64,000 nt of DNA from Desulfovibrio aminophilus (GTDB taxonomy: Bacteria > Desulfobacterota > Desulfovibrionia > Desulfovibrionales > Desulfovibrionaceae), in assembly GCF_023660105.1 (NCBI RefSeq), contig NZ_JAMHGA010000015.1:1-64000 (forward strand), in the 5' to 3' direction. Below, one piece after another: positions 10,050 to 14,298 of this stretch. The notes beneath the pieces are model-generated. The model was given only the letters and a program-made list of their open reading frames with translations. It was not told where the DNA came from and ran no database searches. The position numbers were made by a program, and so were the translations under genes. How positions within the stretch are numbered: position 1 is the first letter of the stretch; each line of letters begins with the position of its first letter.

Positions 10050-10185
10050 GCGGTGTCCTCTCCCGGATTTCCACGGTCCGCGCGGAACCCGGGGCGCACC
10101 TGTGTTGTGACAGAAAGGACTTTGGCCGTCAATTATAGGAATCTGTTGATTTTTTCCGCCACGGCCCGGCCGGAAACGCCCGCGT

Positions 10186-11424
10186 TCAGGGCTCGAACGG
10201 ACGGTTGCCCGCCAGACAGGCGCAGAGTTCGGCGTAGACCTCGGCCAGCCGCTCGCGGCTCGGGTTCCCGCCCAGGCGCGCCAGGAGACGGGCCGAGAGC
10301 GTGCCCTTGGTCAGGATGGTCTCCAGGGGCTTGCGCCAGGCCGGATCGAAGTCGTCCGTGGGCAGGGCGTTCTTGGCCATGAACAGCCATATCTCCGAGG
10401 CCTTGCAGGAGCGCCGGTTGGTCAGGCCCAGGGCGTGCAGGTAGGCCGGGTCGTCGATGACCGCCTCGTGGCCGCGGCGGATGACCTTCTCCAGGATGCG
10501 GGCCAGGGGCTCGGCCTCCCATTTCTTCTGCTCGGCCCAGTCCTGCCAGGTCTCGTCGGCCACGGCGCGCAGGGCGGCCACGGCCAGGGCGGCCACGGCC
10601 AAGTCCGAGGCCGGGCATTCCTGGGTGTCCAGGACGCGGATCTCGATGGCGTCGCGCTCGAAGCGGGCGATGGCCCCCCGGGCGTTGAGCCATTCGTGGC
10701 GCAGGATCCCTTCCTTGTCGTGGGGCCGGATGGCCTTGAACATGGGCTTGAGGATGCGCTTCTCGTACTCCCGCCGGGTGAAGGCCCGCTCGGGCACCAC
10801 CAGCCCGGCCACCTGGGGGATGCGCTCGGAGTTGTGGCGGTAGGCCTCCATGCGGCTGTCGGCCAGGCCGGTGGGGCTGCCGTCCAGGATGGGCGTGCTG
10901 GCCGAGAGCGCGGGCAGGATGGGCAGGATGAGGCGGATGGCCGCGTGCAGCCTGCCGAACTCCTCGTCGCCGGAGAAGGGCAGGTTCAGGTGCATGCTCT
11001 GGAGATTGGCCCAGCCGTGGCCCTGGCAGTTGAAGATGCGGTTGAAGGCCGCGTAGACCGCGTTGTACTCGTGGGGCCAGAGTTCGGTCTCGCGGTTCGG
11101 GTCCATCCAGGGATGGGCCCCGCCGGGCATGAGCTGGCCGCCGATGGGCGCGAGCAGGGAGTTGGCCCGGGCCACGTCGGCGGCGAAGCGCTCCGAGAGG
11201 CCCTCCAGGCTGGGGGCCGGGCCGTTGGTCTTGAACTCCACGACGTGCAGGACGAGTTCGTTGGACCAGGCCGTGTCCCCGAACTCCACGTCCGAGGTCA
11301 GCCGCCCGGCGGCGGCCTCCAGGAGCCGGTCGGCGGCCGGGTAGACGTCCAGGGTCCGGGCGTCCACGATCATGTATTCGAGTTCCACGCCGTAGCCCTG
11401 GAAGAGGTGCAGCGGCGCGCTCAC
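10186..11424 (-). CDS. GCS2-type carboxylate-amine ligase (glutamate-cysteine ligase family 2)
   Basis: A 412-residue member of the GCS2 family, which uses ATP to join the gamma-carboxyl of glutamate to an amine. The N-terminal GVELEYMIVD stretch carries the metal/ATP-binding glutamates. NCQGHGWANLQSMHLNLPF and AIEIRVLDTQECPASDLAV correspond to the conserved core and the C-terminal R-x-x-D motif. The GTG start overlaps the stop of the ATP-grasp gene by four bases. It is the last gene of a peptidase/RimK-like/GCS2 operon, a context unlike classical glutathione synthesis. The acceptor amine cannot be told from sequence. Confidence 0.85.
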   Translation of the reverse strand: MSAPLHLFQGYGVELEYMIVDARTLDVYPAADRLLEAAAGRLTSDVEFGDTAWSNELVLHVVEFKTNGPAPSLEGLSERFAADVARANSLLAPIGGQLMPGGAHPWMDPNRETELWPHEYNAVYAAFNRIFNCQGHGWANLQSMHLNLPFSGDEEFGRLHAAIRLILPILPALSASTPILDGSPTGLADSRMEAYRHNSERIPQVAGLVVPERAFTRREYEKRILKPMFKAIRPHDKEGILRHEWLNARGAIARFERDAIEIRVLDTQECPASDLAVAALAVAALRAVADETWQDWAEQKKWEAEPLARILEKVIRRGHEAVIDDPAYLHALGLTNRRSCKASEIWLFMAKNALPTDDFDPAWRKPLETILTKGTLSARLLARLGGNPSRERLAEVYAELCACLAGNRPFEP

Positions 11425-12890
11425 AGGGAGCCCCCCAGGGCCTTCTTGTTCTCGATGCGGCGCAGGAAGACCTCCATGAGCCGCATGTACAGTTCCTCGC
11501 CCAAGATTTCGTCCTCGACGCCGTTGTCGATGTTGGGATTGTCGTTCACTTCCATGACGTAGACCCGGCCGTCGACCATCTTCAGGTCCACGCCGTAGAG
11601 CCCGTCGCCGATGAGCCCGGCGGCCTTGACCGCCGTGCGGATCACGGCCTTGGGGGCCTTGCCCACGGGCAGGCTCTCGGACTTGCCGTAGACGTCGCTG
11701 CCGTCCTTGCCGGTATGCACGATCTGCCAGTGGTCCTTGGCCATCCAGTACTTGCAGACGAAGAGCGGGCGGCCGTCGAGCACGCCCACGCGCCAGTCGT
11801 AGTCCGAGGGCAGGTATTCCTGGGCGATGACCAGGTCCGAGCGCTTGAGCATGGCCTTGGCGGCGTCCAGCAGGCCCTCGCGGTCGCAGGCCATGACCAC
11901 GCCCTGGGAGAAGGAGCTGTCCGGCTGCTTGAGGATGCAGGGCAGGCCGAAGTCGTTGAGCGCCTGCTCCACGTTCTTGGCGTGCACGATGATGGTCCTG
12001 GGGGTGGGGACCTTGTGGCGGCCCAGCAGCTCGGCCAGGAAGACCTTGTTCGAGCAGCGCAGGATGGACTCGGGGTCGTCGATGACCACCAGGCCCTCCT
12101 CGCTGGCCTTGCGGGCCATGCGGTAGGTGTGGTGGTCCACGTTGGTGGTCTCGCGGATGAACAGGGCGTCGAACTCCGAGAGCCGCCGCGAGTCGTCGCG
12201 GGTGATGAACTCCACGCCCATGCCCAGGGACTCGGCGGCCTTGGCGAAGCGCTTGAGGGCCTTCTGGTCCGAGGGCGGCCGCTTCTCGGCCGGGTCCTGG
12301 AGGATGGCCAGGTCGTAGGCCGTGGGCGAGCGCTTGGGGATGACCAGCTTCTTGCCCGCCAGGTATTCCGAGGCCACCTGGGAGGCGAAGGGCAGCTCCT
12401 TCTTGGGGATGTCCTTCATGGACAGGGGCGAGACGTTCTGCAGGTACCAGTCCGCGCAGGAGTGGTTGAAGTCCGCGCGCAGGAACGGCGCGGGAAAGAA
12501 CTTGAACAGCCGAGAGGCCAGCGTCTCCAGGCCCTTCTTCGGGGTCCGGCCGAAGTAGATGTTCAGGGAGAACTTGCGCAGGGTCCGGCCGTCCAGGAGC
12601 TTGACGATGACCTCGTCCAGCTCGTCCGAGGCCAGGCTGATGATGCCCATGGACTTCAGGTCCTGGATGGTGGTCACGCTGGGCACGGGCTTGTGCTTGC
12701 GGGCCTCGGCCAGGAGCGAGACGTAGTAGCCCAGGCTCTGGTAGCGGTAGGACTGGCAGAAGTTGAAGACCTTGGCCCCCTTGAGCGAGGAGAAGGAGGC
12801 GTCGGAGAGGTAGGCGCGGGCGGCTACGGGCTCGATGCCCGAGAGCGTGAGCGGACAGTCCTCCGGGTTCTCGATGACGGTCAGGATCAA
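11421..12890 (-). CDS. RimK-like ATP-grasp ligase with RLAN-type N-terminal domain
   Basis: A 489-residue ATP-grasp enzyme expected to form an amide bond between an acyl phosphate and an amino group. Residues 1-190 form the extra domain found on long RimK-like proteins. The ATP-grasp fold begins at about 280 (VIDDPESILRCSNKVFLAELL), with the nucleotide-binding lysine region PCILKQPDSSFSQGVV and metal ligands in YGVDLKMVDGRVYVMEVNDNPN near the end. A TTG start at 12890 is taken, with AGGAG nine bases upstream overlapping the end of the peptidase gene. Couples to the GCS2 gene by a four-base overlap. Canonical RimK adds glutamates to ribosomal protein S6; this longer family has no settled substrate. 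Confidence 0.85.
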   Translation of the reverse strand: MILTVIENPEDCPLTLSGIEPVAARAYLSDASFSSLKGAKVFNFCQSYRYQSLGYYVSLLAEARKHKPVPSVTTIQDLKSMGIISLASDELDEVIVKLLDGRTLRKFSLNIYFGRTPKKGLETLASRLFKFFPAPFLRADFNHSCADWYLQNVSPLSMKDIPKKELPFASQVASEYLAGKKLVIPKRSPTAYDLAILQDPAEKRPPSDQKALKRFAKAAESLGMGVEFITRDDSRRLSEFDALFIRETTNVDHHTYRMARKASEEGLVVIDDPESILRCSNKVFLAELLGRHKVPTPRTIIVHAKNVEQALNDFGLPCILKQPDSSFSQGVVMACDREGLLDAAKAMLKRSDLVIAQEYLPSDYDWRVGVLDGRPLFVCKYWMAKDHWQIVHTGKDGSDVYGKSESLPVGKAPKAVIRTAVKAAGLIGDGLYGVDLKMVDGRVYVMEVNDNPNIDNGVEDEILGEELYMRLMEVFLRRIENKKALGGSL

Positions 12891-12902
12891 GCGGTGCGTC
12901 TC

Positions 12903-13625
12903 CTAGATGGTCGTTCCCTTGGGGGCGATGATGAGAAGGTTGGCGTCGAATGTCAACGTGCCGAGCATGATCGAGTGGATGAGCCGGGCCATGCGCACCT
13001 CGTAGATCTGGTCCCGGGACATGGGATTGGGCAGCAGGGGATCGGCCACCAGCACGGCGCGCTCCTCGCGGCGGTAGCCGCAGAGGACCACGAAGTGGCC
13101 CGAGGGTTCGCCGCGCACGTCGTCGTAGATCAGGGCGTCGCCCTGCCCCAGCTCGCGGGCCGTGCCGTAGAGGTAGGTCGCCGAGAGCCCGGTGAGCACC
13201 GGCAGGCCGCGCGTGAGCATGCGGCGCAGGAGCCTGGAGGACAACTCCTCGAAGCGGATGGAGCCGCCCAGGGCCAGGAAGCGCATGTAGGCCCGGCAGG
13301 CGGCCCGGACCTTGCGGCGCTGGGGCTTGGCCTCGATCTGGGCCGCCAGCTTGGCGGCCATGTCCGCGGGCTTGCCGTTGAACCAGGTGGGGTCGAAGAC
13401 CTGCAGGTCGTAGGTGTAGAGCGCCGCCGAATAGCCCCGCGACAGGGCGTGGCAGCCGAGGAGCACGGCCAGGGTGCCGCCGCCCGGCAGCTTTTCCACC
13501 TCGTCGATGACCCTCGGCAGGGGCAGGGTGTCGCCGTAGTAGGCGTAGACCGCGTGCAGGCAGGTGGGGCCGCAGGTGGAGTCGTCGGGCTGGGGCAGGA
13601 TGCGGAAGTCGAGCCTTGTGACCAT
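12903..13625 (-). CDS. C39-like cysteine peptidase
   Basis: A 240-residue papain-fold peptidase of the C39-like group. The oxyanion glutamine and catalytic cysteine are read in PQPDDSTCGPTC (Q12, C18), the histidine in PSGHFVVLCGYRR near 177, and the aspartate in VLVADPL near 193. No signal peptide is seen, so it should act in the cytoplasm. The ATG at 13625 has GAGGCG upstream, and it opens the operon that continues into the ATP-grasp and GCS2 ligases. A cytoplasmic peptidase beside two amide ligases suggests that it trims or processes the ligases' product. It is not fused to an ABC exporter as bacteriocin C39 peptidases are. Confidence 0.85.
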   Translation of the reverse strand: MVTRLDFRILPQPDDSTCGPTCLHAVYAYYGDTLPLPRVIDEVEKLPGGGTLAVLLGCHALSRGYSAALYTYDLQVFDPTWFNGKPADMAAKLAAQIEAKPQRRKVRAACRAYMRFLALGGSIRFEELSSRLLRRMLTRGLPVLTGLSATYLYGTARELGQGDALIYDDVRGEPSGHFVVLCGYRREERAVLVADPLLPNPMSRDQIYEVRMARLIHSIMLGTLTFDANLLIIAPKGTTI

Positions 13626-13863
13626 GGGTCGCCTCGCTGGAGCACGGACATACTCCCAACTCCCGGGAATATCCAGTGCCCGGCATGCGGCCCGCCGGGG
13701 CGCGCCGGGCCGGGATTTCGCGCGCCCCCCGTTGCCAAGGCGCGTTTTTTGGGGCATCTTTCGCCGAAAGGTCGCGCCCCGGAGGCGGGACGCGGCCCGT
13801 TTTTCCGGGGCCGGTCCGCCGGCGGACCGGAATCTGTTGTTCTCATCCTGACATCGGAGCCAC

Positions 13864-14298
13864 ATGAAACTTTCTGCCAAGTCGCGGTACGCCGTGCGCC
13901 TCATGCTCGACCTGGCCATGCACGTGGGGCGCGGGCCGCAGCGCACCGCCGCCCTTTCCGAGCACACCGGGGTCACGGTGCGCTTCATCGAGCAGATCCT
14001 CAAGCCGCTCAAGAAGTCCGGGCTGGTGGACAGCGTGCGCGGGGCGGCCGGGGGCTATGTCCTGGCGGGCAAGCCCGAGGACGTGACCCTGGCGGCCATC
14101 CTGCGGGTGGTCGAGGGCGACCTGAGCCTGACCCACTGCCGGGCCGCGCCGGAGATCTGCCACCGCAGCCAGGTCTGCAAGGCCCACCAGGCCTGGGGCC
14201 GCGTCTCGCGGGCCCTGGAGGCCGAACTCTCGGCCATCTCCCTGGCCGACCTCATGGAACCCCTGCCCCTGGGCTCGCAGCACGGCTGCGACGTCTGA
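13864..14298 (+). CDS. Rrf2-family transcriptional regulator with three-cysteine Fe-S motif
   Basis: A 144-residue winged-helix regulator. The N-terminus (MKLSAKSRYAVRLMLDLA) and recognition region (FIEQILKPLKKSGLVDSVRGAAGGY) are classical Rrf2/IscR sequence. Cysteines C92, C99 and C105 sit where IscR binds its [2Fe-2S] cluster, so iron-sulfur or redox sensing is likely. It is transcribed divergently from the peptidase/ligase operon across 238 bp and ends at a strong terminator. Because it is not beside isc/suf genes, its target may be the divergent operon or itself; this is inference. Confidence 0.9.
   Translation: MKLSAKSRYAVRLMLDLAMHVGRGPQRTAALSEHTGVTVRFIEQILKPLKKSGLVDSVRGAAGGYVLAGKPEDVTLAAILRVVEGDLSLTHCRAAPEICHRSQVCKAHQAWGRVSRALEAELSAISLADLMEPLPLGSQHGCDV

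Follow-up and report, generated by a model that had tools for sequence, protein, structure and literature searches.

What is made by an operon in which two ligases are coupled to a cysteine peptidase? The question was raised by three genes, referred to as the trio, at 10186-13625 of a 64,000-nucleotide stretch of Desulfovibrio aminophilus DNA (contig NZ_JAMHGA010000015.1, positions 1 to 64,000; hereafter the window). A sequence-only reading had placed C39-like peptidase, RimK-like ATP-grasp and GCS2 genes there; coordinates and families were confirmed using Pfam, and the genes are tightly coupled (12 nt between the C39-like and ATP-grasp genes, and a 4 nt overlap of the ATP-grasp stop with the GCS2 GTG start).

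12903-13625, minus strand: C39-like (papain-fold) cysteine peptidase/amidohydrolase, ATG start, 240 amino acids
11421-12890, minus strand: RLAN + RimK-like ATP-grasp ligase, TTG start, 489 amino acids
10186-11424, minus strand: GCS2/YbdK-like carboxylate-amine ligase, GTG start, 412 amino acids

The operon is read here, at a probability of about 0.5, as a cytoplasmic pathway for making and recycling a small glutamate-containing amide (gamma-glutamyl, or N-capped and di- or tripeptide-like). Gene order, co-inheritance, intact catalytic residues, the C39 and ATP-grasp folds, partner exchange and coupling to a fourth gene support this reading.

Genomes were scanned with the ATP-grasp protein, which gave 59 loci, and loci from genomes of the class were added. 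The order C39-like, ATP-grasp, GCS2 was the same in the 41 trio loci examined, a few of which are near-copies as the two collections overlap in species. These loci span Desulfobacterota, Gamma- and Betaproteobacteria, Fibrobacterota, Sumerlaeota, Planctomycetota, Verrucomicrobia, Acidobacteria and Leptospiraceae. Because the arrangement recurs in 41 loci it is not due to chance, and the trio is a real unit. Profile matches among 149 genomes of the class numbered 19 (C39), 20 (GCS2) and 33 (a broader ATP-grasp profile), and all 19 C39 genomes were also GCS2 genomes, with the genes adjacent. Co-occurrence of C39 and GCS2 was significant (hypergeometric P = 4e-23, by genus P = 2e-7), figures that overstate independence because the genomes are related; they are not needed for the evidence from recurrence across phyla. 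The three proteins gave correlated pairwise distances (r = 0.83-0.88, permutation P = 0.0005). No C39 remnant was found at L018 and L025. The sequence-only reading had proposed an uncharacterised ligase-plus-peptidase system and named a lack of co-conservation as the ground on which that proposal would fall; the trio is co-conserved far beyond Desulfovibrionales, so the objection fails, and the shared gene order bears the proposal out.

The three-gene view was right as far as it went, and incomplete, since it lacked the usual fourth gene and the sister forms described below. An FGase-family gene (N-formylglutamate amidohydrolase, PF05013, E ~1e-24), which from the family name we take to act on N-formylglutamate, lies directly downstream of GCS2 in 29 of the 41 trio loci. 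Within the class, FGase was found in 17/149 genomes, namely 16/19 with the trio and 1/130 without it (Fisher P = 1e-17, by genus P = 7e-5). No FGase gene was found anywhere in the window genome or in its congener G095, nor beside the trio of L002; therefore the window shows a shortened form, FGase having been lost in the window genus. The third trio genome without FGase is G068, whose GCS2 is cut by the contig end. On the tree, presence of FGase beside the trio required at least 9 gains or losses. In one gammaproteobacterium (L016, 6608-7282), an alpha/beta hydrolase gene (PF20408) occupies the FGase position.

10050-10185, strand not given: usual place of the FGase gene, empty here and occupied in 29/41 relatives

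A second source of information was the set of loci without GCS2. There the ATP-grasp gene often occurs with GNAT, which is fused to it (L032, L033 and seven genomes of the class, L075-L081), adjacent to it, or part of a fusion with a DUF3335 C39-like peptidase; some of these loci have no GNAT either. GNAT and GCS2 were never found beside the same ATP-grasp gene in any locus, and mapping the two states onto the tree of ATP-grasp proteins took at least 2 changes, against a mean of 16 when shuffled. Both enzymes acylate an amine, GNAT from acyl-CoA and GCS2 from an ATP-activated carboxylate. Because they exchange, acyl-capping of an amine is suggested as their shared step. PMC10318531 credits Iyer 2009 with the suggestion that a GNAT domain joined to DUF3335 could act as a peptide ligase or an acetylase. 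In other Desulfovibrionaceae (L075, L077, L078, L079, L080), a small SET-domain gene is found close to or adjoining the genes for GNAT-RLAN-ATP-grasp fusions of ~660 amino acids; this association is unusual and may indicate that the GNAT-fused form acts on a protein. In Haliea and relatives (L042-L047, L053, L057), the RLAN ATP-grasp gene has neither GCS2 nor GNAT, and a 2OG-Fe(II) oxygenase gene comes after it in several of these loci. The most informative parts of the system, FGase and the GCS2/GNAT exchange, thus lie outside the window.

The GCS2 protein matched PF04107 over residues 12-294 (2.6e-34; 119.3 bits against a cut-off of 21) and is the only GCS2 in its genome. Its G-V-E-L-E metal/ATP motif, which retains the family's GxExE signature as published (PMC2588565), and its EIRVLD motif are intact, and G12, E14, E16, N55, E56, R263 and D266 are invariant in the 41 trio loci. 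Scores fell below the curated cut-offs for YbdK (TIGR02050, 60.4 of 176.4 bits) and for GshA-type enzymes (TIGR02048, 32.3 of 249 bits); gamma-glutamyl ligase activity is predicted from the family. An orphan GCS2 (G146, L074, 5853-7052) starts inside GxExE and has lost E56 and E63, which are invariant elsewhere, and no partner ATP-grasp, C39 or FGase gene, nor a remnant of any, was found at L074. This gene is a decaying remnant, and its damaged motif is what would be expected if GCS2 were useless without its partners.

The ATP-grasp protein comprises an RLAN domain (PF14401, 4e-44, 150.3 bits against 25; ~12387-12821), which occurs once in its own genome, and then an ATP-grasp domain (PF08443 RimK, 5.2e-9, 36.4 bits against 21; ~11451-12317). 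The cut-off for RimK alpha-L-glutamate ligases (TIGR00768) was not reached (71.7 of 143.4 bits). The structure model (predicted local distance difference test, pLDDT, 88; predicted template modelling score, pTM, 0.63) had ArgX/LysX (Z 28) and RimK (Z 27.7) as better matches than Ddl and GshB, with Z 22.2 for glutathione synthetase 1gsa.

The C39-like protein matched PF13529 (4.3e-9; 37.5 bits against 24) and PF03412 (1.1e-4), and no signal peptide was seen in it. Gln12, Cys18 and His177 were invariant among trio loci and Asp195 nearly so; all four line up with the C39 catalytic residues in an alignment with the ComA peptidase. Its model (pLDDT 89.5) matched the double-glycine protease 6mpz (Z 16.3, root-mean-square deviation (rmsd) 2.0, 136 residues) and the phytochelatin-synthase-like Alr0975 with its glutathione acyl intermediate (2bu3; Z 16.1, rmsd 2.5, 162 residues). 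With a Cys-His-Asp set in a papain fold, the protein belongs with C39-like peptidases. As a stand-alone protein it is not a C39 double-glycine exporter, and no ABC transporter or GG-leader open reading frame (ORF) was kept beside its gene. Phytochelatin synthase (PF05023) was not listed for it by Pfam at E 0.01, similar as the fold is.

A carrier or substrate gene was looked for in several ways. No conserved small ORF was found within 700 bases either side of the 41 trio loci; the small-ORF clusters seen there were mostly shadows of known genes, and none was kept across genera. Pup-like tagging with a substrate ORF within that distance was rejected accordingly; a gene lying further away is possible. 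The LysW carrier (TIGR01206) is absent from the window genome, so a LysW-dependent ligase was rejected, and S6 glutamylation of the RimK type was rejected because ribosomal S6 ends RLSDTTAA, with no C-terminal Glu. The sequence-only reading had seen no carrier or substrate peptide gene, and these searches agree. A defence system was rejected as PADLOC gave no match. Neither canonical GshA nor canonical GshB was found in the genome.

The pathway may be pictured as follows. As its family suggests, GCS2 would activate a carboxylate by phosphorylation and couple it to an amine; the likeliest such group is the gamma-carboxylate of glutamate. The RLAN/RimK-like ATP-grasp enzyme, judged by its fold, would use another acyl-phosphate step to attach one more amino acid; RimK, LysX and ArgX extend glutamate-terminated acceptors. 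The C39-like enzyme, together with FGase in most lineages, would hydrolyse amide bonds in the product or in an intermediate, perhaps for trimming, turnover or glutamate salvage. In the sister systems GNAT would cap the amine from acyl-CoA, in place of GCS2 with glutamate and ATP, and in the window genus the pathway would run without FGase.

Several points weigh against this picture. The search for a substrate gene spanned just 700 bases per side of the trio. Fold support is limited to the models of the C39-like and whole ATP-grasp proteins, and the C39 fold fits a peptide-leader protease as well as it fits a glutathione-type enzyme. GCS2 reaches no matched GCS2 subfamily cut-off, so that glutamate is proposed as its substrate from the family. 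FGase was lost in several lineages and therefore cannot be essential.

Protein or peptide tagging, in which a protein from a gene elsewhere would have glutamate or a short peptide attached by GCS2 and/or the ATP-grasp enzyme and removed by C39 and FGase, is doubtful. RimK/RimB in Pseudomonas offers a precedent: there a protease next to the ligase cuts back the glutamates that the ligase adds (PMC10092738). The window system likewise pairs a related ATP-grasp ligase, RimK/LysX-like in fold, with a protease, but differs in its extra RLAN domain, its score below the RimK subfamily cut-off, its second ligase and its S6, which ends SDTTAA. LysX/ArgX gave the best fold match of the ATP-grasp domain, but act with LysW, which the genome lacks. 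Pupylation shows a GCS2 relative turned protein tagger (PMC2588565), PafA joining glutamate carboxylates to amines as a GCS2-related ligase; here there is no Pup-like ORF, the GCS2 is an ordinary family member, and the hydrolase is a cysteine peptidase rather than a proteasome. The SET-domain gene beside the GNAT-fused sister form hints at protein substrates there, whereas no substrate or carrier ORF is conserved near the trio loci. For two related families of carboxylate-amine ligases, with no Pup-like ORF nearby, peptide metabolites were argued to be the products (PMC2588565). A small-molecule product is favoured over a tagged protein because of that argument and because conserved small ORF, LysW and terminal Glu of S6 are all missing.

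A small molecule could also be a thiol. In a replacement glutathione pathway, which is less likely again, GCS2 would form gamma-glutamylcysteine, the ATP-grasp enzyme would be the glutathione synthetase and C39 an Alr0975-like glutathione cleaver. The lack of canonical GshA and GshB makes a glutathione-like product possible, the trio GCS2 being the only one in the genome, and the component types of glutathione synthesis and of Alr0975 (GCS2 family, ATP-grasp, papain-fold enzyme) are all represented, with fold matches to Alr0975 and 1gsa. Against it, a main thiol would hardly be confined to 19/149 genomes of the class; the ATP-grasp fold is nearer RimK/LysX than GshB, GCS2 scores far below GshA-type cut-offs, and the C39-like protein has no phytochelatin synthase domain by Pfam; the proteins fall in separate subfamilies. 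FGase is coupled to the trio and GNAT replaces GCS2 in the sister forms; we know of neither from thiol synthesis. Handling of exogenous amines or N-acyl-glutamates, in which GCS2 would cap an amine with a gamma-glutamyl group, in the way that PuuA caps putrescine, and the hydrolases would release glutamate, is the least probable of the readings weighed. It accords with the presumed FGase substrate, with the interchange of GCS2 and GNAT expected of two amine-capping routes and with a patchy distribution suited to an accessory pathway, but no dehydrogenase, aminotransferase or transporter is conserved beside the trio, and the ATP-grasp ligase is left unexplained.

The divergent neighbour and the site between it and the trio were considered separately.

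13864-14298, plus strand: Rrf2 gene, divergent from the trio (PF02082, 4e-37)
13650-13672, minus strand: 23-bp imperfect palindrome ATATTCCCGGGAGTTGGGAGTAT, directly upstream of the C39 start

The Rrf2 protein has an IscR-like Cys/His set (C92, C99, C105, H108), the first two cysteines being one residue further apart than in what we take to be the IscR arrangement, and scores under the IscR equivalog cut-off. Rrf2, as noted in the sequence-only reading, is really present. Beyond the window, a divergent Rrf2 gene adjoins the trio in two near relatives alone, L002 and L071; it was therefore rejected as a conserved regulator and is not part of the trio system, and redox or iron control through Rrf2, suggested in that reading, does not hold as a property of the system. 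Control by Rrf2 within the window genus is possible. The palindrome is conserved among close relatives of the window genome and is a candidate operator, possibly of Rrf2 type; no further copy within 3 mismatches was found in the window genome, so it was rejected as a regulon motif.

Ligase-peptidase neighbourhoods, GNAT-DUF3335 among them, were reportedly predicted in 2009 by Iyer, Abhiman, Burroughs and Aravind (doi 10.1039/b917682a). The amidoligase/peptidase neighbourhoods credited to that work resemble the present system in combining ATP-grasp, GS-fold and GNAT ligases with peptidases; the FGase coupling and GCS2/GNAT exchange were measured in the present analysis. The system is uncharacterised, well conserved and of the predicted kind; a limited literature search found no paper on the GCS2 + FGase form. 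It is tentatively proposed, at somewhat below even odds, that GCS2, RLAN ATP-grasp, C39-like and FGase proteins form an undescribed, widespread module by which a novel amide metabolite or tag based on glutamate is built and removed, GNAT being able to take over the GCS2 step across bacteria. Two ligases and two hydrolases found together across several phyla make a compact set, and the FGase link and GCS2/GNAT exchange narrow its chemistry to glutamate and amine capping. For RLAN (PF14401) and DUF3335 (PF11814) proteins, prediction was the sole functional statement found in the literature search; identification of the product would also give these proteins a function.

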